From Thunnus maccoyii (Eukaryota; Chordata; Actinopteri; Scombriformes; Scombridae): a stretch of 64,000 bases of DNA. The position numbers and the translations under genes were made by a program. Where the stretch lies: positions 33,120,457-33,184,456 of the forward strand of contig NC_056542.1 of the NCBI RefSeq assembly GCF_910596095.1, in the 5' to 3' direction. The notes beneath the pieces were generated by a model. It worked only from the letters and a program-made list of their open reading frames with translations, ran no database searches and was not told the origin of the DNA. How positions within the stretch are numbered: position 1 is the first letter of the stretch; each line of letters starts with the position of its first letter. Shown piece after piece: positions 8,696 to 62,268 of the stretch.

Positions 8696-10925
8696 AATTG
8701 ATTGATTTGATTTGATTTATTGATTGGGACAGTGTGCAGTTTTAAACATTAAAAATGCACTGCACCGGAGTTGGCTCGAAGCTAATTTGCATCCGTAGTC
8801 CCCCACAATCAAAACATACAACACCATAACAACAAACAGTACAAAGCCAAAAAAAAACAAACAAACAAAACAAAACAAAAAACAAAATAATCCCCCCCCC
8901 AAAAAAAACAAACAAAAAAAAACACACACAGAACACACCATACTAAACACAAAATACAAAGCTACACACAACAGCACAACACATACACCCACAATGTCAA
9001 TCAGAAACTAACAATGCAAACTAGACTCAGTGGTCACACAGCTGATTGGTCTTTAGTAATGTTTTTAGTTTGGCCTTGAATGTATTTATAGAACTACAGT
9101 TCTTCATATCATCAGGTAGGGCATTCCACTGAGTTGTGGCTTTCACAGCTGACTGCCCAAATGCAGTGTGATGAAATGGTATGGTACAATCTTGTATAGA
9201 GGATATTCTGGAGGATCTAACAGAACTTACTGAGCGAGTGTACACAAAGACACATAGTGGAGGAGGGGTCAAACCATTTAAAATTTTATAAACTAGGCAC
9301 AAATTTGAGAATAATCTAAAATTGTCAAAGCTCAGTAAACTGTATTTCTCCAGTACCCTACAGTAATGGAAATGCTTTGGCTTTTTTCTAGAATTTTTAG
9401 AGTTTATTTGTATAAGGACTCAAGAGGTTTTATGGCTGTTTCTCCGGCCTGCCCCCAACATGTGATGCAATAAGACATATGGGAAAGAATCATAGCATGC
9501 ATAAATATCTTGGCTGCGTCCAAAGAGAGACAGTTTCTAATATGTTTAAAATTTGCTAAGTTGTACTTTATGGTTTTAACCGTTTTTAAAACTTGTTTCT
9601 TAAAAATTTGGATCCAGTGTCACACCAAGATATTTAAAATCAGTAACTATTTCAATTTTTTCACCTTTGATGAAAATATCAGCATTAGGAGGTTGTACCA
9701 TAGTTTTAGAGAAAAACATACCTTTTGTCTCAGACTCAGACATGGATGATCAAGCCAATGTGTGATCCTTTCCGATGCAATTGTTAGCTTAGCAGCAGTT
9801 AACTCAGCTGTTTTTGCATGTGTGTACACAACAGTGTCATCTGCATACATTTGTAGTTCTACATCATGGCACTGTTGAGGGAGATCATTAATATATAAGC
9901 TAAATAATAGGGGACCTAACACTGACCCTTGTGGAACACCGATTGTGCACTTCATGTTATTGGACAGTGTGTCACCACCTTTAACACATTGTATCCTATT
10001 GGATAAATATGAAGACATCCATGCCAGTGCTCTAGATGAGAAGTTAAATTTAGAGAGTTTCGATATTAAAACATCATGATTGACTGTATCAAATGCTTTA
10101 TGCAGATCTAAAAATACAGCACCAACTACTCCTTTGTCAAGTCTTGATTAAATTTGCTCTATTAGGTGCAAGGTAGCAGTTTCGGTGGAATGATTTGCTC
10201 TAAAGCAAAATTGCATACAATGTAGACCAAAATTGCTTGTATTAAGAAATGTTGTAAGTTGTTTAATGACAACTTTCTCAGCAACCTTTAAGAGTACTGG
10301 CAGTATACTTATTGGTCTGTAGTTACTGGCTTCAAGGCGGTCTCCAGATTTAAAAATAGGCGTGACAATGGCACATTTCCAGTCATCAGGAAAGGAGCTG
10401 TGTTTAAAAGACAAGTTAATTAAATGAGCAATAGGGGGAGTTAAAATACCTTTGTGTGATTTGACAAACACAGTGTCAAATTAGAAAGCATCTCTACTTT
10501 TGGAGCTTTTTAAGGAGCTGATGATTTTGTTTACTTGTAACTCATTAGTCTCTACCAGCTCGAAAACCTGACCTGTAGCATCTATAGGACCAATATCCAG
10601 TTTCTTTTCTGTAATTTTTTCCCCTATCTCATATACAGACTCAAGAAAAAAATGATTAAAGACAAAAGCAACAGTAAAATGATCTTCAATTAACTTTCCC
10701 TGTACTTTTAAAATCTCCTAAAAATTTTGGGTCCCTCCTTGTGAGATTATCAATGTTTTTTGAGATCAATTTACTGTTGCCTTTCGCCTCATCCAATATA
10801 CTGAGATAAAAACGAGATTTAGCTTCTCTTAGCTCTTGGATAACTTTGTTCCTTAAACCTTTATGTAGCATATTCAAATGATCAGCCAAAGATAGCCATA
10901 GATCTACCTCAGTGCACAACCCACT
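8696..10925 (-). mobile_element. 5'-truncated L2/CR1-group LINE
   Basis: About 2.2 kb, read on the minus strand. The 3' end is the short repeat series at 8696-8725 (attgatttgatttgatttat on the plus strand), a type of simple tail used by L2-group LINEs. Coding remnants run from the pre-RT linker (10686-10919) through the RT to the C-terminal domain (9027-9302). The AC/A-rich stretch at 8840-8990 is 3' untranslated sequence. The 5' end, with the endonuclease, is missing, as is usual for LINE copies that stop during reverse transcription. Confidence 0.85.
9027..10919 (-). pseudogene. LINE reverse transcriptase, broken
   Basis: The enzyme family copies LINE RNA into DNA at a nicked target site. 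Visible parts in order: a linker ending in 'LTRRDPKFLGDF' (10686-10919); the RT fingers, with 'DDWKCAIVTPIFKSGD' and 'ASNYRPISILPV' (10148-10471); an untracked middle stretch reading 'VFLDLHKAFDTVNHDVL' (about 10050-10120); the palm, with 'GVPQGSVLGPLLFSLYIND' and the catalytic 'YADDTVVY' (9647-10018); and a C-terminal segment with 'TQWNALPDDMKN' (9027-9302). The parts lie in different frames with stops, so the copy is inactive although the YADD box itself is intact. Order and spacing fit L2/CR1-group LINEs. Confidence 0.85.
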
Positions 10926-17669: not shown

Positions 17670-18960
17670 TCAATCAATTTTTATTTATATAGCGCCAAAT
17701 CACAACAGAAGTCATCTCAAGGCACTTTTCACATAGAGCAGGTCAAGACCGTACTCTTTAATATACAGAGACCCAACAGTTCCCCCATGAGCAAGCACTT
17801 GGCGACAGCAGTAAGGAAAAACTCCCCTTTAACGGGTAGAAACCTCAAGCAGAACCCGGCTCTTGGTGGGCAGCCATCTGCTTTGACCGGTTGGGTTGAG
17901 AGAGAGAAAGAAAGAGGGAAAGGGGGAGGGGGACAGAAGAACAACAATCATAACAATAACAATAAGTATAAGTAGCTATAGCCAGGGAAGGATGCCAACA
18001 GGACTGTGAAGGACCGCGAAGGCTCGGCCTGCATCCCAGGGTTTCCTGCGGGATGAGAAAGCACAAAAAACTCCAGGGAAGAAGCCAAGTTAGTGACATG
18101 CACTGATGGTACATGAATGCATACAGATGGAGAGGAGGAGGAGGAGAGAGGAGCTCAGTACATCATGGGAAGTTCCCCAGCAGTCTAGGCCTATAGCAGC
18201 ATAACTAAGGGCTGATCCAAGGCGAGCCTGGTCGGCCCTAACTATAAGCTTTATCAAAAAGGAAAGTTTTAAGCCTACTCTTAAACATAGGGAGGGTGTC
18301 TGCACCCCGGACCGAATCTGGAAGATGGTTCCACAGGAGAGGAGCCTGATAGCTGAAGGCTCTGCCTCCCATTCTACTTTTAAAGACTGTAGGAACCACC
18401 AGTAAGCCTGCATACTGGGAGCGCAGTGTTCTAGTGGGATAATACGGTATTATGAGCTCTTCAAGATATGATGGTGCCTGACTATTAAGGGCTTTGTAAG
18501 TTAGGAGAAGGATTTTAAATTCTATCCTAGATGTTACAGGAAGCCAATGTAGTGAAGCTAAAATGGGAGAAATATGATCTCTTTTTCTAGTTTTTGTTAG
18601 TACATGTGCAGCTGCATTCTGGACCAGCTGGAGAGTCTTTAGAGACTTGTTAGGGCAGCCTGATAATAAGGAATTGCAATAATCCAGCCTAGAAGTAACA
18701 AATGCGTGGACTAGTTTTTCTGCATCTTTTAGGGACAGGATGTGCCTGATTTTTGCAATATTACGTAAGTGAAAAAAGGCAGTCCTTGAAATTTGATTTA
18801 TGTGGGAGTTAAAGGACATATCCTGATCAAAGATAACTCCCAGATTCCTTTCCGTGGTGCTGGAGGCCAGGGTAATGCCATCCAGAGTAGCTATATCATT
18901 AGTAACATCCATTTTCTCACCATTGAAATGCTGTTCTTTTGCTTGCTTAAGTATTTTTGC
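17670..18960 (-). mobile_element. 5'-truncated L2 (Maui-like) LINE
   Basis: A 1.3-kb minus-strand copy. It ends in an (atca)n tail at 17658-17682 followed on the plus strand by tttatttatatagcgccaaa, the characteristic 3' end of fish L2. The 3' untranslated part lies at 17690-18235 and a single clean reading frame at 18238-18912 covers the RT C-terminus. A second, shorter piece of the same 3' region lies on the opposite strand at 53985-54300. Confidence 0.9.
18238..18912 (-). pseudogene. L2 reverse transcriptase C-terminal part
   Basis: An uninterrupted 224-codon frame. It reads 'RNLGVIFDQDMSFNSHI', 'AFVTSRLDYCNSLLSGCP', 'LQLVQNAAAHVLT', 'ILASLHWLPVTSRIEFKIL' and 'SRLKTFLFDKAYS', a nearly canonical fish L2 thumb and C-terminal domain. 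The fingers and palm with the YADD catalytic site are absent through 5' truncation, so it cannot reverse-transcribe. The good frame suggests a fairly recent insertion compared with the LINE at 8696-10925. Confidence 0.9.
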
Positions 18961-20312
18961 TGAGTTTCTTGAGCAGCTCCTCTACTCCACTGATAGAAAG
19001 CAGGATGACCTCAGCGTAGCGACCATCGTTCAGACACAGCTCCCTCAAAGTTACCGACCAGCAGCACCATCAGTATCTTCAGAAGAACATGGATTAGCCA
19101 TGAACCCAGAAACACACACTACAGTTACATTTGCGATCATGACAAACAATGACAAGGTGTAAAATATGTTAACAGAGCTAATGTGTTGTAATCACATAAT
19201 TAAGTGTGTTTACAGATGAAAGATTTTACCACATGACTGAAGAGGCCTGCTGGAGGAAAAGAACCCGATGTTCTAGCATCAGCAACCGAAGCTGCTACAT
19301 CAGAGTTCTGGAAAGACAAAAAAAGAGAGTATTTAACATTAAATATTCTATTGAACATTAAAGGAGCAGCAAAAACAATGACCATAAAGATTTAAAAATT
19401 GCTCGCATCAGTTTCTGGTATCCAGGTATTATGATCATTCCTGCATAGAAGAAGGGAGATTTTGAAAAATTTTTTTTAGAATAATGACATGAAATTGAAC
19501 ACAGGAAAATGTGTTTTTGTAGACATATTTCAGACCTGTGAATAACATGTGTGACTGAATTTTACAGTCAACCTACCTCTTGCAGTTTCTGCATGGTTGA
19601 CTGTCTTCTTTGGTCCAGCAGACTCTCCTACTTCCCATCTGCATACACACAAACACACATGCTCCAAACATTAATGCAAAATGTATAATATAAGGAATGG
19701 TAGCTGCCATGAGTGCAAATGACTCTTTTCGCTCTCACAAATAACACACATGGTACCTTGATAGTCGAGTTTGGCTAGCTCAGCCTCTCAGCTTGATTAT
19801 GCACCACCCCACATAAAACAGCCTGGGGCCATTTTTTAGTCCCAGGCCATCCCTGGTTGTATGTAGCATAAAATGTAATTTTATGTCTCTGCTGTGCACT
19901 CTCTTGCTGTCTTTCTAATGTACCGATCCATAAAATGGTGGGATGGTGCTACGCATGTGTAGAGCTGTTACACTATATGACACTACATCAATTTTACGTT
20001 GTTGCAACATATAGGTTTTCATCACACAGTAATATGTTCAGACAATCAATAGACGACGATTCAAAATGCCCGTGATCAACTGTAGATGTCGCGACCTTGT
20101 GCAGACATCACTGCGACATATATGTGCTTACTGGGATAGAGGCATCAGTATTACATTGAGACTGTTTCATAACTAAAAAAGTTAAAAGTTCCGTGTAGTA
20201 ATTTTAATAAGAAGTGCAGTGTAGTTTACTACTGCCTCATGTAACCTTACACATAATTCCAACAACAATAATAATAATAATACAATAATAATATTAACGA
20301 AAAAAGAGCTCT
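18961..20312. other. Spacer without recognised gene
   Basis: No family resemblance in either strand. An AT-rich trinucleotide patch occurs at 20263-20290. Confidence 0.4.
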
Positions 20313-34007: not shown

Positions 34008-34116
34008 ATGTTCAAAAGGCAGAGAGGGATACGGCCTGCTGATGATGCAACATCACACATTCTGTCTTTGATGGACAAGCCGGGGTTTATGGAAAGATTT
34101 AATGACAGTAACAAAG
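34008..34116 (+). pseudogene. First exon of the SET locus
   Basis: Preceded by ttattttcacagagag and starting with ATG. It reads 'MFKRQRGIRPADDATSHILS' and continues to 'KPGFMERFNDSNK', ending at a gtacgg donor in phase 1. The next exon supplies the completing bases, so that the SET opening motif follows directly. The segment corresponds to the short helix ahead of the SET domain in KMT5A-type enzymes. It could be an internal exon, because the ATG lies close to a possible acceptor. Confidence 0.6.
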
Positions 34117-34979
34117 GTACGGGGCAGCAGGTCCTTTGGGGGGCAGCATATTACACAAGTGCAAAATTGTGCAAATACACAAATATTTAGCCTACTTGTC
34201 AGAATCAGAGATCTGTTGGCAAAAAAACAACTCTACATAAGCCTGGCTTCAATCATGAATGTTGCAGTAAACGTAAGAGAAATAAACTAAAGTGCTCTAC
34301 ATTTCTTTCAATGGCATATTGCCTGTGTTATATCCTGTCTATATGAATTATAAATGTCTATATTTGTAGTTGGAAAATGATAAAAGGCTGTATTGGCATT
34401 TCCAGAAGGGCTATGAAAGTGTCCACGTTGTGTTACTACACTGCAGTGTTTCCACTGGTAACATTTTGCAGTGGTGGGCTGCCACGCCAAAATCTTTGCC
34501 ACCATTGCAACACTGCAGAAACACGAGATAACTGCTAAAGTATGATAAGGCTGTCTGACGTTAGTGGTTTGATTTATTGTTGATAGGGATGCTTGTTTTG
34601 ATTTTTTTTTTTTCCTGACCAATAGCTGACGCTCGCTAACTGACAAGATTAAAATGTAGTATTTAGAATGAATGAGTGTCTGTGACACATTTAAAAAATA
34701 TATCAATACAACAAACGTTTACTGTATAACAGACGGAATAAAAGAGACCAATAGGCCTACATGAAAAATATTTAACATAAATAAATGTTTAAGTAAATAG
34801 CAAATAGTAGCCAGACTTCCTAATGATCAGAAACAGATTAACAAACGAAAACACACATTGAATCCTCCGGTGAAGAGAGCGTTGAAACGAAAACCACCTC
34901 CGCCTCCTCCTCCGCTCCTGGCTTATTAATGATTGAAAACAGCCAACAGGTTAACAAAACTGAAACTTGCAGTCACAAT

Positions 34980-35055
34980 TTTCAGACCTCAACCTCTAAG
35001 TTTGTGTGACGCTCAAAACAATTTATCCACTGTTTTACAGCCACAACAGTAGGTT
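34980..35055 (-). repeat. Dispersed repeat family, copy D (short, inverted)
   Basis: The reverse complement reads tgttgtggctgtaaaacagt and ttttgagcgtcaca, matching copy A near 4433 and copy B near 12330. Confidence 0.5.
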
Positions 35056-35057
35056 AC

Positions 35058-35130
35058 GGCCAGAGGTGTACTGGCCATCAGGCATACTGGGACGAATTCC
35101 ATGTTTTTGGGCCAGTGGACTGTCAAAACA
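35058..35130 (+). repeat. hAT-like terminal fragment
   Basis: Reads cagaggtgtactggccatca and then gggccagtggac. The opening 'cagaggtg.actggccatc' is a common fish hAT-type terminus. No partner end was identified. Confidence 0.4.
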
Positions 35131-35837
35131 CAGGATGATTATCAGCTAACTGTACTCAGTTTCTAATGGCAGTATGCTGTAAATGGTCAGCAGCTGAAAG
35201 CGCTGTGTCCAGTTAATGGTTGAATGTGGTTTCTGTATAAACTGTGTAGCTGTTTTAATGTTAAATAACTAGTTTTCCCTGCAAATTTAAGGCATTTTTC
35301 GAGTACAGGACAGCACCTTTGAAATGTGATTGTCTTAGCTGATATGATTTGAGAAACATTAACCCCCAAAAACTTAATTTGTAAAAAAAAAACAAAAAAA
35401 AAAAAAGAGGAAAAAGTTGTTATATGAAAATGAGTAAATAACAGGAACAATCAGCGTGTAGTGTCTGTTTGCAAAATCTTACTCGGTAACTAAACTCAGT
35501 GACTTTGAGAGGGTGTCAGACTTAAGTCTTTTAAAAGTCTTTTCAAAATCTTCTAGTGTATAAATCCAATGCCTTCGTGACTCGGCTGGGAACCCCCGCC
35601 CCCACCCCACCCCAGTACACACTGCCCCCACGGTAAATCTCTTGTTCCACAGAAAACACTGCACTGAATCTTTAGCTCCAACATATGTTGGTTTTAAAGG
35701 CAGTAGGCTATAACATCATTTTGTTATGATTATACCACATTTAATTTACAAGCGGTGGATCATGCTGTATGTGACAGGTTAAGACAACTCAATGTTTCTT
35801 CTAATTAAAATGTATATTTAATTATATGTCCTCATAG

Positions 35838-36514
35838 GAAGAGAAGTGTTCGCTACCCAGCCCGTCGAACTAGGTTCTTTTGTCTTGGAGTACAGGGTGA
35901 ACTCAAATCACTGGAAGAATGCCGGTCCAGACACTACTCAGAGAGAGAGAGTACATTTCTGTTTGAATTTGAATGGCGGGAACGTCACTGGTGGTGAGCA
36001 TGTAAAGATACATGTTTCGTAGAGATCAGAGAAATTCTAATTAAGACCTTTTGAATAGTTGATGAATGAGTGAAAGCAGGAACAACTGCAAAAGTTAATT
36101 CAGTGAATCAGATTTGGTTTGTAACTTTAGCCATCACTGAAAAGTCTTGACATTTTAGGCTAATGGAAAGAGTTTTATCTTTATCAGGATGTTCTCCTAT
36201 CACACATCATACAGATAGAGTTGATGTGCTATGTATTTTAAATGACTCTTACAGTAAAACTGTTAAGATGTATACACTTTATGAAATTACATATTTAAGT
36301 AGTACAGTTTAAGTTGAATGCGTAGTTTTCTTATACTTTTCAGTATTGATGCATCCAAAGAAGATGGATCCCTTGGAAGATTAGTGAATGACAACCACAA
36401 ATCTCCAAACTGCATCATGAAAAAAGTCACTACATTTGTGCCTGTTTGCTGTGAAGAAAATAGAAATAGGAGTTGAAATCGATTACAACTATGGTGATTC
36501 AAAATGGCCATGGT
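35838..36514 (+). pseudogene. KMT5A(SET8)-like SET domain, two exons
   Basis: SET enzymes transfer methyl groups from S-adenosylmethionine to lysines; KMT5A acts on histone H4 Lys20. Exon 35838-35993 reads 'GREVFATQPVELGSFVLEYR' and 'FLFEFEWRERHWW', matching the opening 'GrGVfAt..f.kGdFVvEY.G' motif. Exon 36344 to about 36514 reads 'IDASKEDGSLGRLVNDNHKS' then 'PNC', the counterpart of KMT5A 'vDAT.e..rLGRLiNHs..gNC'. It ends with 'EIDYNYGDSKWPW', the counterpart of 'EelLYDYGDRS'. The cofactor and catalytic landmarks are therefore recognisable although the frame is broken. The exon junction in the middle of the domain keeps phase. Confidence 0.85.
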
Positions 36515-36530
36515 GTAAAAAGGGGAGTTG

Positions 36531-37240
36531 TAGGGCTGTGCGATATGACCAAGATCTCATATCCCAAAGATGATATGTGTCCTGATAAATTTTCTGTAAA
36601 TCCAATGAATAAATAGTTTCTGGTCCATGCCCCCCCCCACCCCCACCTCCCAGTCTGTCCATCCTTTGCGTGGATTAAATTAAATTACTCTTCTTGACTT
36701 TTTACTCGTGAAGCTTTTATTGCACTTACAATAACGTAAAGAGTGTTGTTGTCATCAACTCAAGTACTTCACTTGGTTCACCATCTCTCCAATTCTGTGC
36801 TGCACACACGGAGGACTTGGCCCCGCGTGCAGTGAACCACGGAGAGCCGAGGAGACTAGCACAACCATAAGTAACAGCAAGACGCAGAGACTATCAACTG
36901 AGCTGAAATGAAACGTGTGCACATAAATTAGGTAAATAACATAAATAAAGTCTCTACTGCATTTTGCTGTCATTTATAGTCGCCTCTTTCTCAGTGCAGG
37001 CGGAGCTGAGCCCTTCATGTGTGTAGCACAGTGGTGGAGAGTTGATGACGACTACACTCATTATGTTACTGTAAGTGCAATGAAAGATTTGCAAGTAAAA
37101 AGCCAAAAAGAGTAATTTATCAATGTAATCCACACAAAAGATGGACAGACTCCAAATGATGAAAAATATCACCGTAAAGAGAGTGATTTACGACATTTTT
37201 CCTTGTCATGTGATATATATCATCATAATGCAGAGCCCTA
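36531..37240. mobile_element. Long-inverted-repeat miniature in an intron of the SET locus
   Basis: A 710-bp element. The left end is TAGGGCTGTGCGATATGA and the complemented right end is TAGGGCTCTGCATTATGA. Flanks gggagttg (36523-36530) and ctgagttg (37241-37248) match in 6 of 8 positions, suggesting a decayed 8-bp hAT-type duplication. Long arms continue inward; for example left tgttgtcatcaactc (36748-36762) pairs with gagttgatgacgacta at about 37039. The core is short and non-coding. It lies between the second SET exon and the first acidic exon. Confidence 0.75.
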
Positions 37241-37435
37241 CTGAGTTGGTTAGATTAGGGATACAAGTTTTTTTGAGAATTTAAAGTGTGTAAAAATGTG
37301 CCGATTAGTACAGTTACTTTTGTATTTCTCCAGTATTTATATTAATTTGATTATCTGTGTATCTGTGGATTTCATTTTATCTCAGAGATATATGATCTGA
37401 TCAATATAAGTTCTTGTTTTTTATCTGAATTACAG

Positions 37436-38702
37436 TTGAAAAGCAAGCAGGCTCCTGCTGTGGCAGTAGAGACCGAGACGTTCCCTATAGATCATAGTTC
37501 CCATGAGGATTCAAAGAGAGATGATTCTAGCACACAGGTAATGGAGTAATGTAGACACTGTTGTCACTAACTATTTATGTTGACCTGTTCACCATGTAGT
37601 TCTATTACCAAGATATGAAGTTGTTTACATTGCTCTTCTGATACAGCTTTTCAGTCAGGATTACTCATTAGGTGATGTGGTAGGAGCCAGTTAACATCAC
37701 ACACTCATGTTTCGAGTCTTGCCTCATGGGGCCTTTCTGTATGGATTTCACTCTAAGTGATATCATTAAGGCAACACCTGTCAGTATCTAAATTTAATTG
37801 TTACAGGTATACCTTTACACTTCCCCAGCTGTTGCATGTTTAAAAAGGGTATTTTGAACATGATCCATTGCAGCCCATTATATGTTAAAGTTGTTGAGAC
37901 ATCTAGAAAAGAACGTGCCATGCATTTCACTTGAAGTTATATGCTAATTCAGAAACAGTTTTCACATGAGCTAACTTTTATAACTAGCTAATACCTCCAC
38001 ATACATGATTACTATCAGCGTACTGATTATTTTGTGTTTAATTATATCTAGGTGTTTACTGTCCGAGGGTCTTCCCTGGTGGATTATTCCGAAAGTTATG
38101 AAACCAATGAGGACTGTACTAAAGACCAACCTCTGACTCCACACTGTGATGAAGTTGGAAGAAAAAAGAGGAGGACAGAAAACATTCTGGTATGCCTCAG
38201 ATACTTTGAACGCCAGTAACATGTTGATAGGCAACTGATTCAAAAATCCTTCCTCTGTGATTGATTTTTATAGAATGTAAACAAAAATGGATAACCATTC
38301 CTTGATATGATTCCCTTTTTGCAGATGAATAGAGCATCAGATTTTTCTGATCCTCTGCACAATTCACATGCAAGTATAGTGGACCAAACCGATGATGAGG
38401 ATTCTGTAAAAGACCATTCCAGTGTGCAATCAGATGATGAAGTAGTTCCAAGGCTGAGAAGGACAAAAAGCATTCTGGTATGCTTAAGACACTCTTAATA
38501 CCAATATCTAGTTGATGGGCAATTTCACTCCAAATCTTTCCCCTGTAATTGGTTTTAATAGACTGTGAACAAAAATGGATAATCATAACCTCGACAGTTT
38601 TCTGATGCTCTCTGCGATTCAAGTGATGACAGCACAAAGGGCCCTTCCACTTCTATGTCTGAAATGGCTTCACAAAGGCTGAGGAGAAGCTGTAGCCATC
38701 CT
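37436..38702 (+). pseudogene. Four acidic linker exons, partly duplicated
   Basis: Exons 37436-37537 (34 codons), 38052-38189 (46), 38325-38477 (51) and 38598-38702 (35) are each open in phase 0 with ag/gt borders. They are rich in Asp, Glu and Ser and tend to end in a basic patch: 'GRKKRRTENIL', 'RLRRTKSIL' and 'RLRRSCSHP'. The introns 38190-38324 and 38478-38597 are clearly homologous (both start gtatgc and share 'aacaaaaatggataa'). The exon-intron unit was therefore tandemly duplicated. Acidic Ser-rich segments with basic ends suggest a flexible nuclear linker; no fold is recognised. Confidence 0.75.
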
Positions 38703-39169
38703 GTAAGCCTCTTTTTACCTCCTTCATGTCATCACTTAAAGGATAGCACCAGCCAAACTCAACACCATGTTCACTAACTAGAGTGCCAGACATGCATATA
38801 GACGATGCATTAAGGCTGAAATTTTCATACCATCAATATTGTACCGCTATAGGTACATTTGCACTATTCAAACGTTATTTGCACTTTTAAAGAAAAAAAT
38901 ACTTTTACAAAATTTCCATTTGTTTATCCTGGGGTTAGATTATGAATCCTACGAGTGTAGGCATTTGCATTTTCACTGGAATTTTGATTTGTGAATAAAA
39001 TTCTTATTCTAATTTTTTAGTCAACTTGATTGGTATAGTTTAGTATTTGATGATGATCAGGAAGTGTTACTTTTTTTTTCAATGTTTGTGTTTGTCTGGT
39101 GCTCTTGTTAGTGAGTCTGGTATTGATTTTTGGAGGTAGGACTTTGAACATAACACTGAAGTTTTGCAG

Positions 39170-39512
39170 AGCGAGAGGCAAACTCATCCCATGGAAGTGG
39201 AACCGAAGAAAAAAACGGATGGACAAGAATTTATGCATTGTTTTTACTGCTATGGATTGTTCACAAAAAGAGTTATGTGGCGACATTTTCAGGTCTGCAA
39301 ATTCAAGCCTCAGAGTAATACATCTAAAGCAGGTGAAAAAAAAAAGAGTCCAAGCATTGTGTGCTTTTGCTGAACCTGCTCCAGTTGGATTAGCGAAGCA
39401 TACTGGAAGTTCTTAAGTGTTATGAATCAAGACAAGGTTACAGTTGCTATTAAGGAAAACCGCTGCATTCTAGAGTTTGGTTGAATGAGAAGCTAATCAG
39501 CCAACACCAATG
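39170..39512 (+). pseudogene. C2HC zinc-finger part of the last exon
   Basis: After a gttttgcag acceptor the frame reads 'EFMHCFYCYGLFTKRVMWRH' and 'FQVCKFKP'. This is C-x2-C-x11-H-x3-C, a C2HC variant of the classical finger, preceded by the basic 'EPKKKTDG'. A single finger ahead of a recombinase domain would fit DNA or protein binding. Downstream the frame is lost before 39513, where a hAT derivative is inserted. The acceptor phase agrees with the acidic exons upstream. Confidence 0.75.
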
Positions 39513-40213
39513 CAGGGCTCCACTGTGTGAGTATTTCATTCACATTTGCCCCTAAAAATAGATATGTGCCAACTGGAAAAATAATTTACTCACACACTGT
39601 GCGAGTACAAATTACAACCATAAGACTATATGAAACGCTAGAGGACTTTTAAGTTGAAACAACGGATAGAGGAGGTGGAGACGCTTGGCCGACAAGGCAG
39701 TAACCACAGTAACTCAGTCAGTCAGGGACAGACTTGTGCTCGTGCTGAAGAAGTATTTGGTACAATAATTAACATCATCACTAAAGATGAAGCCCCTTAA
39801 TTTTTATTTTGGGCGAAAAAGAGAAGAGGTGAAAGAGGAATCCGGCGAAGTTGATTTGCAAGGTTCAACTGAGGTGGCTCACGCTAGCACAGCGGCTAAT
39901 GCTAGTGATGCTAACAACGCTAACGACGACCAAACTATAAAAGCAGCTGGACGACCGATATCCTTTGCGTGTAGTAGGCATGGGCCTACTTTTGTAAGCT
40001 CATTGTCCTGCTAAAAATGATGAATGATGTATCTTGAAGAATAAGACAACATAAATTTTGATTTACACACACACACACACAGAGCTTAAATATGTATGTA
40101 ATGAATTGTTTTCTTTAATAAACTGTTACTTGGATATTTTTCAGTGTGCTCTTAAATTTCTTTGTGTGCTCCTAAATTTTTTCATTTAGGAAAAAAGTAA
40201 GCATTGAGCACTG
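39513..40213 (+). mobile_element. Small hAT derivative inserted in the recombinase exon
   Basis: A 701-bp insertion. The left end is CAGGGCTCCACTGTG and the complemented right end is CAGTGCTCAATGC, with the CAG start typical of hAT termini. Inside, 39787-40014 opens with 'MKPLNFYFGRKREEVKEESG', resembling the N-terminal tail of hAT transposases, and then stops. The rest of the transposase is absent, making this an internally deleted derivative. Reading resumes after the insertion with 'YIRKKLRELGRL', continuing the interrupted exon. The target duplication is not clean (only caat is shared). Confidence 0.7.
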
Positions 40214-41327
40214 CAATACATTCGAAAAAAACTGAGAGAGCTTGGCAGACTGGTACTGGAAGCAACAAGAGTTAAACCTGTGAAGACTATCAAAGAACTC
40301 ATAAAACCTGAAAAGTACAGTCATGTTGTCACTGCTGCAAGATGCCTAGCTGGATTCAGTGATGAAACTGGCAAATATCAACATCCATCTCTTGCTCGTA
40401 AAGTGGGACACAGTTTGCATTCTTTGGCCATGTTCATTAAGTCCGAAGGATTGAAGATTAAAGATGCCAGCTGCCCAAGATGCTGAGGAATTTACAGAGC
40501 TATATCAAGAAAGTTGGAAATTTGACATTGCAAGCCAAGCGCTAACTCAACTTGACCAGACCAAATGGAATTCTCCTCAACTCCTTCCATTCACGCACGA
40601 TGTCCAAAATCTTCACTGCTATTTGTCTGAGGAACAGCAGCAACACTTGAATGTCCTGAAAGAAAAGCCTTTGCCCTTAAGTGGAAAAGCCTTGCTAAAG
40701 TGAACCTGATGCAAGTAATTCTCTTTAACCGCGGGAGAGCAGGAGAGGTATCCAGAACGGATCTTGTTTGCGTACTTATCAAAGGACACGTCAGAAATGC
40801 ATGAAGATGTCAACTCGGCCCTTACAGCACTTGAGCAGATGCTTTGCAAACATTTTGTATGGATAGCCATAGTAGGAAAGAGAGGAAGGAAAGTTACTGT
40901 TCTCCTCACCCCTCTCATGAGGGAATCGCTTGATACTCTGACTGAGAAGTGAGAAGAATGTGGGTTGCTGAATGAAAATGGATACTTGTTTGCATTGCCG
41001 CATTCTGTCCATTACCTCAGGGGTTCCAACTGCATAAAGCAGTTTGTGAATGAATGTCATGACATCAAAAATCCCAAAGTGCTAACCTCAACGAAACTCA
41101 GGAAACACATCGCTACCCTCTCAACCGTTCTGAATCTCAAGACTACAGAACTTGACCAGTTGGCAGATTTCTTTGGGCATAACATCAGCGACCACAAAAA
41201 GCAGTACCGCCTTCTAGAGGGCACCCTCCAGCTAGCTAAAATAAGCAAAGTTCTCCTGGCGTTGGGACAGGGATGGCTAGGAGAATACAAAGGGAAGAGC
41301 CTGGATGAAATATGTAAGGGGTATTAA
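40214..41327 (+). pseudogene. Tyrosine-recombinase-like catalytic domain, broken
   Basis: Tyrosine recombinases cut and rejoin DNA through a covalent 3'-phosphotyrosine. A helical N-terminal part reads 'IRKKLRELGRLVLEA', 'TIKELIKPEKYSHVVTAARC' and 'WNSPQLLPFTHDVQNLHCYL'. Then come a box-I-like 'LFNRGRAGEVSRTDL' (about 40725-40755) with the first Arg; a basic beta-strand 'GKRGRKVTVLLTP' (about 40876-40914); and the box-II-like 'STKLRKHIATLS', with Arg at 41100. Last is 'FFGHNISDHKKQYRL', with His at 41178 and the candidate nucleophile Tyr at 41205. His-to-Tyr spacing is nine residues, as in XerD. Several frame breaks and the upstream hAT insertion leave it dead. Confidence 0.75.
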
Positions 41328-50677: not shown

Positions 50678-51205
50678 TCTGTCCCCTCTTCTCATTTCTC
50701 AGTTTGTACATCCTTGATTCCTTTCCTTGCCTCCTCTCCCCACGTCTTAGTCCCTCCCACCCCAGATGCGAGCGGAGGAGGTGAGGGAGAGACATGAGGA
50801 TAGAGGAGTTGAGGCAAGGTATACCTCCCATTTCCGTCACAACAACAATTAATGTTTATGGCTACAACAGAGAGAGAGAAAGAAAGACGCTATTCACAGC
50901 AATGGAAGGCAAAACCGCATTATGCCACCCTGCTCCAACATGATGCATTTATGACTGCTTCTTTTTAATGTAGCCTAGTTGTAAAAGAGGGAGCTTATTT
51001 GGTTTGTATTAAAGATAACCAACCACAGGTAGGAAGGTGATGCACATATGGACACATACTTTTATTTAGGTCTCAGCCATACAACATGTTTGCCTTAAAG
51101 GATAGAAAATTGTATTTTAAATCTTGACAACACATTTTATTATGCAAAGTTTGCTGGCTTGAGGATATAACCTATGTATGCTTTAATGTTTTTTCTTTCT
51201 GTAGG

Positions 51206-52250
51206 CTGAAAATCAATCAGCACCCATTTACAAATGCCTAAACAGCACTGTTCCCGTGCTCCAAATACACTTTGACAGGGAACAAGACCTCCTACATGAT
51301 TACCGTCTCAGCTGTGAATCACTGGAGGCCTTGACATGGCGTCTGCCACCTGGGAGGAGACAGGCCTGGGGACACCATATAACTATACTGATAACCGTGT
51401 ACTGGCTCACACACGGTTTATCATACAGTGTGGTGTCCTGGGCCTTTCAAGTTCCTAAAGTGACTGTCTGCAGGCAGGTGCACAAGGGGGCTGGGAAGAT
51501 TGCTGCTCTCTGCCATGAGTTGTTTGTACTGCCTGCTGCTTCAGAGCTGGAGGAGATCAGGCAGTGCTTCCAGCACTTGGCAAACAGCCCTGTCTTTCTG
51601 AAGTATGTGGATGCCATTGACGGGTGCCACATACGTGTGAAGACCCCCTTCTGGACCCAGTGTCCAGGATTACATCAACTGCAAGCTCTTCCCATCCATT
51701 CAATGGTAGGTGGTGTGTGATAGGAAGGGCCGGTTCCTCAATACCTTTGTGGGATATCCTGGGTCGGTGCGTGACACCCGTGTCCTGAAGAACAGTGGAC
51801 TATTCAAAGAGGCTCTGTACCCTCCCTCAGGGTATTTCATTGTGGGGGATGGTGGCTACTGACCAGCCTATAGCCATCATCACCAAGTATCGGGAGCAAG
51901 TGCATGGGAAGGTACAGAGCCGCTTCAGTCAACACCATGCCAAAGCCCACAACATAATAGAGCGGGCCTTTGGCATAATGATGGTGCGATGGAGGTGCCT
52001 ACTATTTAAGGCCTTGGAGGTGAACCATACATTTGCTCCTGTGGTCATCACTGCTTGCTGTCCCCTCCACAACATTTGTCTCACTACAGGAGATATCCTT
52101 GAGCCCACTGAAGAGGTTGAGGAGATTGATGTGCCTCAACCCCATCCAGTGAGGGGCAAACGAAGTAGACATGGCCGGCGAGATAGACTGGCAAACCAAC
52201 TCTCTGGTCCTGACCATAACCCTGTAGAGTTGAATGAACATGATTTGTGA
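51206..52250 (+). pseudogene. HARBI1-like DDE transposase, nearly complete but frame-broken
   Basis: Follows a tttctgtag acceptor. It reads 'HFDREQDLLHDYRLSCESLE', 'TVYWLTHGLSYSVVSWAFQV', then 'KVTVCRQVHKG', a helix-turn-helix-like segment. Next comes 'KYVDAIDGCHIRVKTP', with the first catalytic Asp at about 51619. A second frame carries 'GRFLNTFVGYPGSVRDTRVL', with the second Asp near 51773, and a third gives 'IIERAFGIMMVRWRCLLFKA' with the Glu at 51960. It ends with 'FAPVVITACCPLHNICL' and a basic tail 'GKRSRHGRRDRL'. All three DDE residues survive, but at least two frame changes between 51690 and 51860 break it. It is closer to full length than the copy at 26545. Confidence 0.88.
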
Positions 52251-59308: not shown

Positions 59309-62268
59309 ATGAAGAGGAAAGGTAACATACACAGTTTTTTCGGACCGAAGAGAAAAGCCAAAGAGATTGAAAATGAACAATTGAGCAAGGTAGACGGAGG
59401 ACATGAGGTGAAAGGAGAGAGAAAAGATGAGGAAGGAGAGAGAGGAGAGGACGAGGTGGAGAGAGAGGGAAAGGAGATGGAAGGAAAGAAAGAAGACAGA
59501 GACGAGTTGAAAGGAGAGAGAGAAGGGCAACAGAAACGCGACAGAGTTCAAGGCCAAGGTGACCAGGGACAGGAGGAGGTGACAGAACACAGCGGAGATT
59601 ATATGGAGGGAGTGCACCACCAAGATGAGGACGGAGAAAATAAGAGAGAAGATGAAGTACAGGGCTCAGAAAGAGAAAGGGAAAGGAGCGAACCATCACC
59701 AGCTATCTCCAGTCGAGCTGGTCCACATGGTATGAAATAAGATAATGCATAAGATAAGTTACAGCAGCAAGTGGACAGTAAATAGAGTAAAAAAAACTCA
59801 GTAATAGAAAATACTGTATTAAAATAATAACCATGACACAATTTACATTATTTACAAGAGAAAATGTTGGTATTGATTAGTAATATACCGCAAGTTAAAC
59901 TCCATAACTAAGTATTAGCTATTATATGCTAATTAATGCCTTATAAAATTTTGCTACAAGAGACATTGCTTAGACTTCTTCAAATAAATATAAATATTCT
60001 TGTTAGTCTAAATATGAATAATTGGGGAACTTGTAAATGTGAAAGTGTAATTAGATGGGGACAGAATTTTAATATTTTGTTTGAAATGTATTTTAGATTG
60101 CCAAAATTAAACACATGAATCAAAAAATACTCTAAATGTTACTGTGTGTTTACACAATCTGAAAGTTATAACTAATCAATGACAGTTCCAAATTTATTTT
60201 GTATTTTCTAGTTCTTATATTTTAAGACTAGTTCATATGTAGTGCAGTTTTAATCTTTTCTCCCCTCCATCTTCTAGACATATCTAAGTCCAGGTGTGAG
60301 GTGCCTATGCAACCACAGCGAGGCAGCTTCCCCAAGACCCTCCAAGGAGGAGCCAGAAGAAGCTTTCAAAGTGACTGGTACAAAACTTACCCCTGGCTAG
60401 AATATTCGCAATCAAACAATTCAGCTTACTGCTTTGCATGTAGGCATTTTTCCCTACCTGATGCTCCAAGGACAGTTTTCACCTCATTTGAAGGCTACTG
60501 CAACTGGAAAAAGGCAACCATGAAAGACAGTGGTTTCCATTCTCATGCCAGATCTGAAGGTCACATAAATGCCATGTTTGCTTGGAGAGAGAACAAAAAA
60601 AATTTGGATAAAAATAGCTCAATGTTTGGGTTAATGGATGAGCAAAACAAAAAGCAAGTTGCTGAAAATCAGTACTATGTCAAAACACTTGCTGAAATCT
60701 TGATTCTGACAGCAACTGAAAACATAGCTCAGCGGGGTCACAGGGAGTCTGTTGACTCAGAAAAAAGAGGTGTTTTTCTGTCTATGTTAGACTTGGTGGG
60801 TAACCATAACCCCATTATTAAAAAAAGACTTGAACAACAAGCTAAGAATGCAAAATACACCAGTAAAACAATACAGAACGAAATACTGGAATGCTTGGCT
60901 TCTATGGTTAAAGAAGAAATCATCCAGGAAGTTAAAATGAGCAAGCAGTTTTCGGTTATTGTTGATGAAACTAAAGATGCTCAGAAAAAAGAGCAAATGT
61001 CATTTGTTCTGCGATATTTTTACAATGGTGTGGTTCATGAGAGCTTTCTGGAATTTGAAGTGGCAGAACACCTGCATGCTGCTGCCTTAAGTGAAAAAAT
61101 TATATGCTTTCTTGAAAAGCATGGGCTAGAGTACAAGAATAACCTTGTAGGCCAGGGCTACGATGGTGCGGCAGTAATGCGTGGGACACATGCAGGTGTC
61201 CAGGCAAAAATAAAAGAAGTGGCCAAACATGCCTTCTACATTCACTGCAGTGCACACTGCTTGAACCTAGTCATAGTTGACGCTGTAAAAAGTGTGGCAG
61301 ATGCAGGAAACTTCTTTTCATTATTAGAGCAAATGTATGTGTTTATGTCTGGGTCTTATGTGCATAACAAATGGCTGGAAGTGCGACGAGAGATGTTTGA
61401 TGGCCCACCAAGAGAACTCCAACAGCTGAGTGATACACGCTGGGCCTGTAGACACATAGCATGTCGCAATGTTATGGACAGGTTGCCAGCAATAGTACAA
61501 GTGCTTGAAGAGATTGCATCTGAGAACCATCCACAAAGAGCTGTTGAAGCAAGAGGGATATTGGCCCAGATTGATCTGAATTTTGCTGGCTCTCTTGTTC
61601 TGTTCAGAAAGGTCCTGAGTGACTCCAAATTTTTATCAGACATGCTCCAGTCTAAAACAGTAGACTATGCTAAGGCTGTTGAACTTATTGAAGCACTCAA
61701 AGAGACACTGGTCCAGTACCGTAGTGAAGCCTCTTTTGATGAAATGTGGAGTGAAACACTTGATTTATGTCAACGAAGTAACATTGATACGACTCAGCGA
61801 AAATCAAAGAGGCCAAGACAGACAACAAAGGTGCTTCAAGATACTGTCATCCACTCCACCTTGGGACAGCATGTAGTTCCAGATAGCAAACACACTTTTT
61901 GTGTCTCTGTGTACTATCCAGTTCTGGATAACATGATTGGAGAAATAGGAAGACGATTTTCCAACACAAATTGTGATATTATGCAGGGTGTTCAGGCACT
62001 AAATCCATCAAGTCCAACTTTTCTGAGAGAGGATGCTGTACTGTTATTGGCTGAAGCTTATGACTCCAATATTGAGGATCTCAAACACGAGTTACATCAG
62101 ACGAGGAGAGTACTTGATAGAAAAAAGGGGGAAAATGAGAGTCCTACCACTCTAATGGAGTTCACTCGGTTTTTGGACCCATACCAGGATGTTTTTTATG
62201 AGTTGTTCAGATTGTGTAAAATAGCAGTTGTTTTACCTGTGAGCAGTGCATCCTGTACTCAGCATTGA
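59309..62268 (+). CDS. hAT transposase, two exons, missing part of the C-terminal dimerisation region
   Basis: Exon 1 (59309-59729) starts 'MKRKGNIHSFFGPKRKAKE', chosen because this is the usual hAT N-terminal tail, followed by a Glu/Lys/Arg-rich stretch. It ends at gtatga in phase 1. Exon 2 (60278-62268) begins with the matching phase ('DISKSRCEVPMQPQRG'), giving about 803 residues. The TTF finger is 'RSFQSDWYKTYPWLEYSQSN' then 'YCFACRHF'. The DUF4371/RNase-H-like core has 'FSVIVDETKDAQKKEQMSF' (first Asp) and 'VGQGYDGAAVMRG' (second Asp), then 'IHCSAHCLNLVIVDAVKS'. The frame stops after 'VVLPVSSASC'. The family's hATC block ('ERSFS...') is deleted, and the tail 'SKRTKALDLDKFVKRFAEQH' follows out of frame at about 62265-62355. 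It is probably inactive. Confidence 0.9.

Follow-up and report, generated by a model that had tools for sequence, protein, structure and literature searches.

A locus in Thunnus maccoyii raises the question of whether a histone methyltransferase domain and the descendant of a mobile-element recombinase can belong to one gene. The locus lies in a stretch of 64,000 nucleotides (NC_056542.1:33,120,457-33,184,456, forward strand; C10:33120457-33184456), here called the window, and a preliminary description had taken it for a decayed recombinase-type mobile element, or a gene derived from one, that carries a KMT5A/SET8-like SET domain. We sought relatives in the source genome itself (782 Mb in 54 contigs, denoted by C-numbers) and read the flanks of the family loci in part; since scoring was confined to the best candidates, the genome searches give minimum counts. 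The evidence below indicates that the window copy is probably a pseudogene, from a family of multi-exon genes in which a KMT5A-type SET domain is fused to a descendant of a tyrosine-recombinase element.

SET and recombinase-like exons at single loci

The last 124 residues of the window domain (40953-41324) matched 14 places representing 13 loci (one place is the window itself, and two belong to a single C4 locus). When the C8 relative was used as query, one more locus appeared, on C12, for a total of 14. SET exons lay upstream of the recombinase-like domain and on the same strand at six of the 14 loci: the window, a tandem pair on C15 (C15A and C15B), C4:12.215 Mb, C8:4.266 Mb and C12:2.675 Mb, the last counted by its coordinates only, with a SET match of E 2e-4. 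The co-occurrence that the preliminary description had proposed to look for was thus found at five other loci, with order and strand unchanged, at the DNA level and within the species' own genome. As judged from sequence, the SET-recombinase combination is real.

In the C15 pair, the SET and recombinase exons are open and the intron phases match. C15A consists of four exons, with canonical acceptors for exons 2-4, canonical donors for exons 1-3 and phases of 1, 2 and 0. Joined, they read as a single 787-residue frame, whose stop is situated beyond the donor EEIEIEG/GTATGT, and encode a SET domain, an acidic linker, a C2H2 finger, a C2HC finger and the recombinase-like part, in that order. The acidic stretch past the C15A donor is also conserved in C15B; therefore, given the position of the stop, the protein is probably longer than 787 residues.

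Further 3' exons were found elsewhere in the family. A C-terminal exon from C4 (WSPAEVAAVMRHF...IRDFVRN) matched 16 places. It lay 3' of the recombinase part at C23:26.50 (E 1e-35) and in both C9 copies (5e-5 and 8e-5), with weaker matches in that position at C11:28.96 (0.25) and C8:35.14 (0.78). It also lay 3' of SET copies at C11:27.79 (2e-18) and on C20 (8e-10), and matched C10:19.47 Mb (3e-32) and further weak places. No exon of this type was found in the window.

SET copies with no detected recombinase part occurred at nine places (56-67% identity; four were read downstream). SET exons of the same subtype were also observed at C14:55657, C41:7989, C29:5000, C1:40960397 and C7:35181094, some of them near contig ends; recombinase queries of the whole genome matched none of these five places, two of which (C14 and C29) were read downstream. 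An apparent 1743-codon frame with SET on C29 was dropped as uninformative, because the sequence after the SET exon reads N. No relatives in viral and prokaryote contigs were confirmed.

These SET copies, and the eight of 14 recombinase-like loci at which no SET was detected, would be expected if the two parts were separate adjoining genes that only appear to be joined. We consider that explanation very improbable, given the identical order and strand at six of the 14 loci and the phase 0 junction of exons 3 and 4 in C15A, which has canonical sites.

A phylogeny of the recombinase part (FastTree) included five of the SET bearers, C12 being left out, and these were scattered and formed no single group. 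The window grouped with C8, the C9 inverted pair and one C23 copy (C23b), apart from C15A/C15B and from C4 with the other C23 copy (C23a); several supports were low, two deep nodes having just 0.16-0.33. Most simply, the fusion would predate the family as found in this genome, with loss of SET from some copies.

Identity of the SET domain

The SET region of C15A matched Pfam SET at E 7e-18, and its best solved structures were those of KMT5A (E 4e-20), followed by the next class at 3e-13. Its EY, GRLVND and YNYGD, which we take to be catalytic positions, align with EY, GRLIN and YDYGD of KMT5A. The KMT5A/SET8-like assignment of the preliminary description was therefore borne out through this relative. 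Taken alone, window exon 3 gave six weak PDB matches to KMT5A/SETD8 (E 1.2-1.7) and exon 2 weak PDB matches to ASH1L (E 0.16), both exons being too short to place; the piece at 36421-36573 matched Pfam SET at E 0.095.

Window exons 1-3 align with SET exons 1-3 of C15A. Exon 1 is 41% identical to its counterpart over 39 amino acids (E 0.005, tblastn), in agreement with the DNA alignment, and exon 3 is 75% and 78% identical in two pieces. Phases 1 and 2 of these exons match C15A, and the compatible phases previously described hold for exons 1-3 only if two frameshifts are allowed.

Similarity of the C-terminal domain to tyrosine recombinases

We compared a family profile (seven rows, six kept by the program) with a profile of eight bacterial recombinases, XerD and seven plasmid recombinases, by hhalign. 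The score was 28.1 over 153 columns (P 0.012, E 0.012), and Arg, Lys, the box-II Arg and GH fell in register and in order within this alignment. None of 400 shuffles reached 28.1; the best of 200 template-column shuffles scored 18.4 and the best of 200 query-column shuffles 23.3, and the reversed profiles scored 17.4 and 13.9. The profile search that the preliminary description had proposed for its tyrosine-recombinase-like C-terminus thus had a mixed outcome, in favour with a purpose-built profile and negative with the standard libraries. In a search of the whole genome with Phage_integrase, none of the 26 places found was a family locus. We also tried and dropped DUF3504 as an identity for the recombinase part, since none of the 53 scored genome matches to PF12012 lay in the 14 family loci.

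Several results, here for the domain and below for the gene as a whole, count against the reading that we prefer. No library recognised the recombinase part (Pfam, NCBIfam or PDB profile search); the hhalign probability was just 3.6%; an eight-row family alignment set against just XerD gave P 0.14; and two recombinases of the same genome, which we take from their motifs to be DIRS-type, gave no match (hhalign P 0.5). A gap shifts the Tyr by one column in the printed alignment, although counting residues places it nine after the His in both profiles. The absence of a library match, the low probability and the displaced Tyr would suit an unrelated helical domain in which the R/K/R/H/Y pattern arose by chance. 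We hold this to be improbable, because the score was reached by no shuffle and a single 153-column alignment takes in Arg, Lys, box-II Arg and GH in order. The C-terminal domain is likely, though not certain, to be homologous to tyrosine recombinases, as far as the profiles can tell.

Catalytic residues in open and decayed copies

The five catalytic positions (Arg-I, Lys, box-II Arg, His/Trp and Tyr, in this order) were read in 13 rows, C12 being left out. Each of the five copies whose recombinase exon is open has lost at least two of them: C15A reads C K Y H Y, C15B N N R C Y, C9a R K R P T, C9b K K R P T and C11 R Q R - Y. All five were kept (R K R H Y) in three of the eight decayed rows, namely C8, the window and C4. 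The other five decayed rows had likewise lost catalytic residues or were fragments, which is a further point on the opposing side: C23b reads R Q R H C; the fragment C23a has Cys for the box-II Arg and keeps H and Y; the two C9 inverted copies, also fragments, have N and K for Lys and box-II Arg and keep H and Y; and the fragment C8b has G for the box-II Arg and H at the His position. The His of the HxxR motif was replaced in all 13 rows by T, K, M, A, S, C or Q. Thus, the R, K, R, H and Y landmarks noted earlier are present in the window, with the qualification that the H is that of the later GH, the HxxR His being T.

An open frame together with lost catalysis would correspond to the taming of a mobile enzyme, by analogy with the DUF3504 genes as described in the main text of PMC3212892.

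Probable constraint on the open copies

Between C15A and C15B, the SET exons (153 codons) gave dN 0.117 and dS 0.413, a ratio of 0.28 (NG86), and the recombinase exon (609 codons) gave dN 0.360 and dS 0.757, a ratio of 0.48 (NG86) or 0.59 (YN00). In a neutral simulation with substitutions only, one copy of the C15 recombinase exon stayed free of stops in none of 2000 runs. The evidence from the younger C9 pair was weaker, with ratios of 0.46 (NG86) and 0.73 (YN00) and 13 of 2000 simulated pairs remaining open. The best reading is that the C15 pair is under constraint. The earlier suggestion of a gene derived from a recombinase-type element is supported.

Gene family or mobile element

The competing explanation of most weight is that the locus is a dead Crypton-like mobile element that itself carried the SET domain, which would mark the chromatin of donor or target sites, and that the open copies are its domesticated offshoots. 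It would account for 14 scattered and mostly decayed loci, and for the retention in the decayed window, C8 and C4 of recombinase residues that the open copies have lost. In addition, C4 has 0.9-1.1 kb in common with SET copies on three other contigs (C11, C14 and C29), where identity is 81-84% and extends through the introns. C11 also matches C4 in sequence 3' of the C4 recombinase part, and no such part was detected in the 8 kb of C11 read. This sharing, which adds to the points against a gene family, is compatible with a mobile element that had suffered an internal deletion, or with the duplication of chromosome ends. Against mobility, no terminal repeats, target duplications, common ends or empty sites were seen in the stretches read, copy number is low, and the HxxR His is absent from all 13 rows. 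Several copies are located close to the end of a contig (C8 35.14 of 35.147 Mb, C23 26.50 of 26.53 Mb, C14 0.056 Mb), and therefore chromosome-end duplication could explain the spread. Evident duplication took a tandem form on C15 and at 7.4 Mb of C9, and an inverted form at 0.47 Mb of C9; DNA similarity among recombinase-bearing loci is mostly exonic, the exceptions being recent C9 duplicates, a C4-C23a stretch beyond the exon end and unrelated repeats. We regard an element of this kind as possible, and rather unlikely.

Three further observations sit uneasily with a constrained SET-recombinase gene family. SET was found at none of eight loci (C8:35.14, two on C23, the C9 pair at 7.4 Mb, the C9 inverted pair at 0.47 Mb and C11:28.96), either in stretches of about 10 kb read around each or by genome-wide SET queries. 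The first exon of C15B has no in-frame ATG after its apparent acceptor, one being present about 11 codons upstream, and so the 5' end is uncertain. Finally, exon 3 and its borders are 93% identical in DNA within the C15 pair; this identity and the lower dS of the SET exons (0.41 vs 0.76) could have come from gene conversion rather than from constraint.

A gene family is nevertheless our preferred reading, and its protein may be pictured as follows. In the fullest relatives, it comprises the KMT5A-type SET domain, the acidic linker, the C2H2 and C2HC fingers and the tyrosine-recombinase-like domain, with additional 3' exons in some relatives. The recombinase part would have come from a tyrosine-recombinase mobile element, a direction of descent that we infer from similarity at the profile level. 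With at least two catalytic residues lost in the five open copies, it would most likely bind DNA or dimerise. The SET domain would most likely methylate a histone, perhaps at H4K20, where the fingers and the recombinase fold bring it. The decayed window copy can no longer make such a protein.

Structure and decay of the window copy

Table 1. Features of the window locus, with positions counted from the first nucleotide of the window.
Feature	Positions	Strand	Remarks
Exon 1, start of SET module	34008..34116	+	Phase 1 donor AAAG/GTACGG
Exon 2, SET part GREVFATQ..EY	35838..35993	+	Internal frameshift; phase 2 donor TGGTG/GTGAGC; aligned to C15A exon 2
Exon 3, IDASKEDGSLGRLVND...DYNYGD	36344..36526 (end approximate)	+	Internal frameshift; donor GT lost
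Dispersed repeat at exon 3 donor, inverted ends GTAGGGCTGTGC / GCAGAGCCCTAC	36530..37240 (ends approximate)	.	At least 114 matched stretches, best 40 of 975 candidates scored
Acidic linker exon	37436..37537	+	Phase 0; from sequence
Acidic linker exon	38052..38189	+	3' part recurs 288 nt further
Acidic linker exon with second repeat copy	38325..38477	+	From sequence and repeat comparison
Acidic linker exon	38598..38702	+	Phase 0; from sequence
Start of last exon seen, EHN.EVL motif and C2HC finger	39140..39514	+	tblastn to C15A and C15B
Dispersed repeat within recombinase exon	39515..40192	.	At least 58 matched stretches, best 40 of 875 candidates scored
Tyrosine-recombinase-like domain	40208..41313	+	Three frame changes; TGA 40950-40952; R, K, R, H, Y kept; donor GTAAGG at 41314

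The acidic linkers of the preliminary description proved to be four phase-0 exons with ag/gt borders, and its single C2HC finger was located at 39239-39298 with tblastn support from C15A and C15B. The C2H2 finger that precedes the C2HC finger in C15A had no match in the window (tblastn). Parts of two linker exons are overlapped by the repeats at 38147-38298 and 38435-38586, apparently produced when a linker exon and its intron were duplicated in tandem. The last exon had been described as ending at the stop at 41325-41327; this end was incorrect, as the frame runs through SLDEI into the donor listed in Table 1, and relatives have further 3' exons.

The window copy is a dead pseudogene, damaged by frameshifts, a stop and two repeat insertions, in agreement with the decay first described. 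Exon 2 begins as GREVFATQ..FVLEYRV and ends as FLFEFEWRERHW in another frame, exon 3 contains a second frameshift and has lost its donor, and the recombinase part contains three frame changes and the TGA. Most matches to the repeat in the recombinase exon span just its first 171 or last 150 bases (approximate lengths), and no target duplication was found around it.

Neighbouring mobile-element genes

Genes resembling those of mobile elements were also observed in the window. A 678-residue open frame at 60232-62265 matched DUF4371 (E 2e-25) and is presumably a hAT-type transposase-like gene. Two open frames at 51205-52247, which we take to be Harbinger-like, comprise a first frame with no Pfam match and a second (51789-52247) that matched DDE_Tnp_4 (E 3e-10). 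On the minus strand, 9647-10144 and 18238-18978 hold a fragment of a reverse transcriptase (RVT_1, E 1e-21) and a further frame that matched nothing in Pfam and is LINE-like by eye.

Outside the window, pieces of Crypton-derived DUF3504 genes flank the C15 SET-recombinase pair on both sides and on the same strand (C15:8289687-8291839 and C15:8243475-8245197), and another lies at C11:28907241-28909367, about 52 kb from the C11 recombinase-like gene.

Relation to known systems

In the Crypton-derived DUF3504 genes (ZMYM2-4, QRICH1, KCTD1 and KIAA1958), the recombinase domain was likewise retained after catalytic loss and joined to other domains, according to the main text of PMC3212892. They differ in that the window family has no DUF3504 match, and SET is not mentioned in that main text. 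The same text gives the recombinase as the sole recognisable domain of animal Crypton elements, whereas in the window family SET is joined to the recombinase part; some family copies share non-coding DNA, and no ends were found in the stretches read. DIRS-type elements differ too, the family profile having given P 0.5 against the two DIRS-like recombinases of this genome.

A gene with SET and a tyrosine recombinase was not found described in the open-access literature as judged by titles and the starts of abstracts, a scope that makes this weak evidence of absence. SETMAR also fuses a histone-methyltransferase domain to a mobile-element enzyme, in that case a mariner transposase with a SET of another type. 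Comparable to SETMAR, a recombinase fold and a histone methyltransferase in one gene would amount to a ready-made writer of a chromatin mark at chosen DNA sites.

KMT5A/SET8 is the nearest solved structure to the C15A SET, but the canonical protein carries SET at its C-terminus (main text of PMC10368294), whereas here SET is N-terminal and is followed by the fingers and the recombinase-like domain. That text reports up to 65 KMT5A-like genes in Hydractinia, 24 in Hydra, 61 in sea urchin and one in Nematostella. In most Hydractinia genes SET is N-terminal, the early-activated ones are non-adjacent and have diverged strongly, and both ends are alike between the longer Hydractinia genes and the longer urchin genes (PMC10368294). 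The expansions in Hydractinia, Hydra and sea urchin, as presented there, resemble the window family in their mostly N-terminal SET, long genes, common C-terminal ends and scattered, divergent copies; the words "recombinase" and "integrase" are absent from the main text of PMC10368294. By this analogy, the N-terminal-SET expansions of Hydractinia and sea urchin may be the same kind of thing as the window family. We suggest, very tentatively and as somewhat doubtful, that an old animal tyrosine-recombinase element travels with its own KMT5A-type methyltransferase, in which case the Hydractinia, Hydra and urchin sets would be its copies or tamed genes and the window a fossil of another branch. 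If the C-terminal ends of the Hydractinia and urchin genes are the recombinase-like domain, those expansions would need a new reading.

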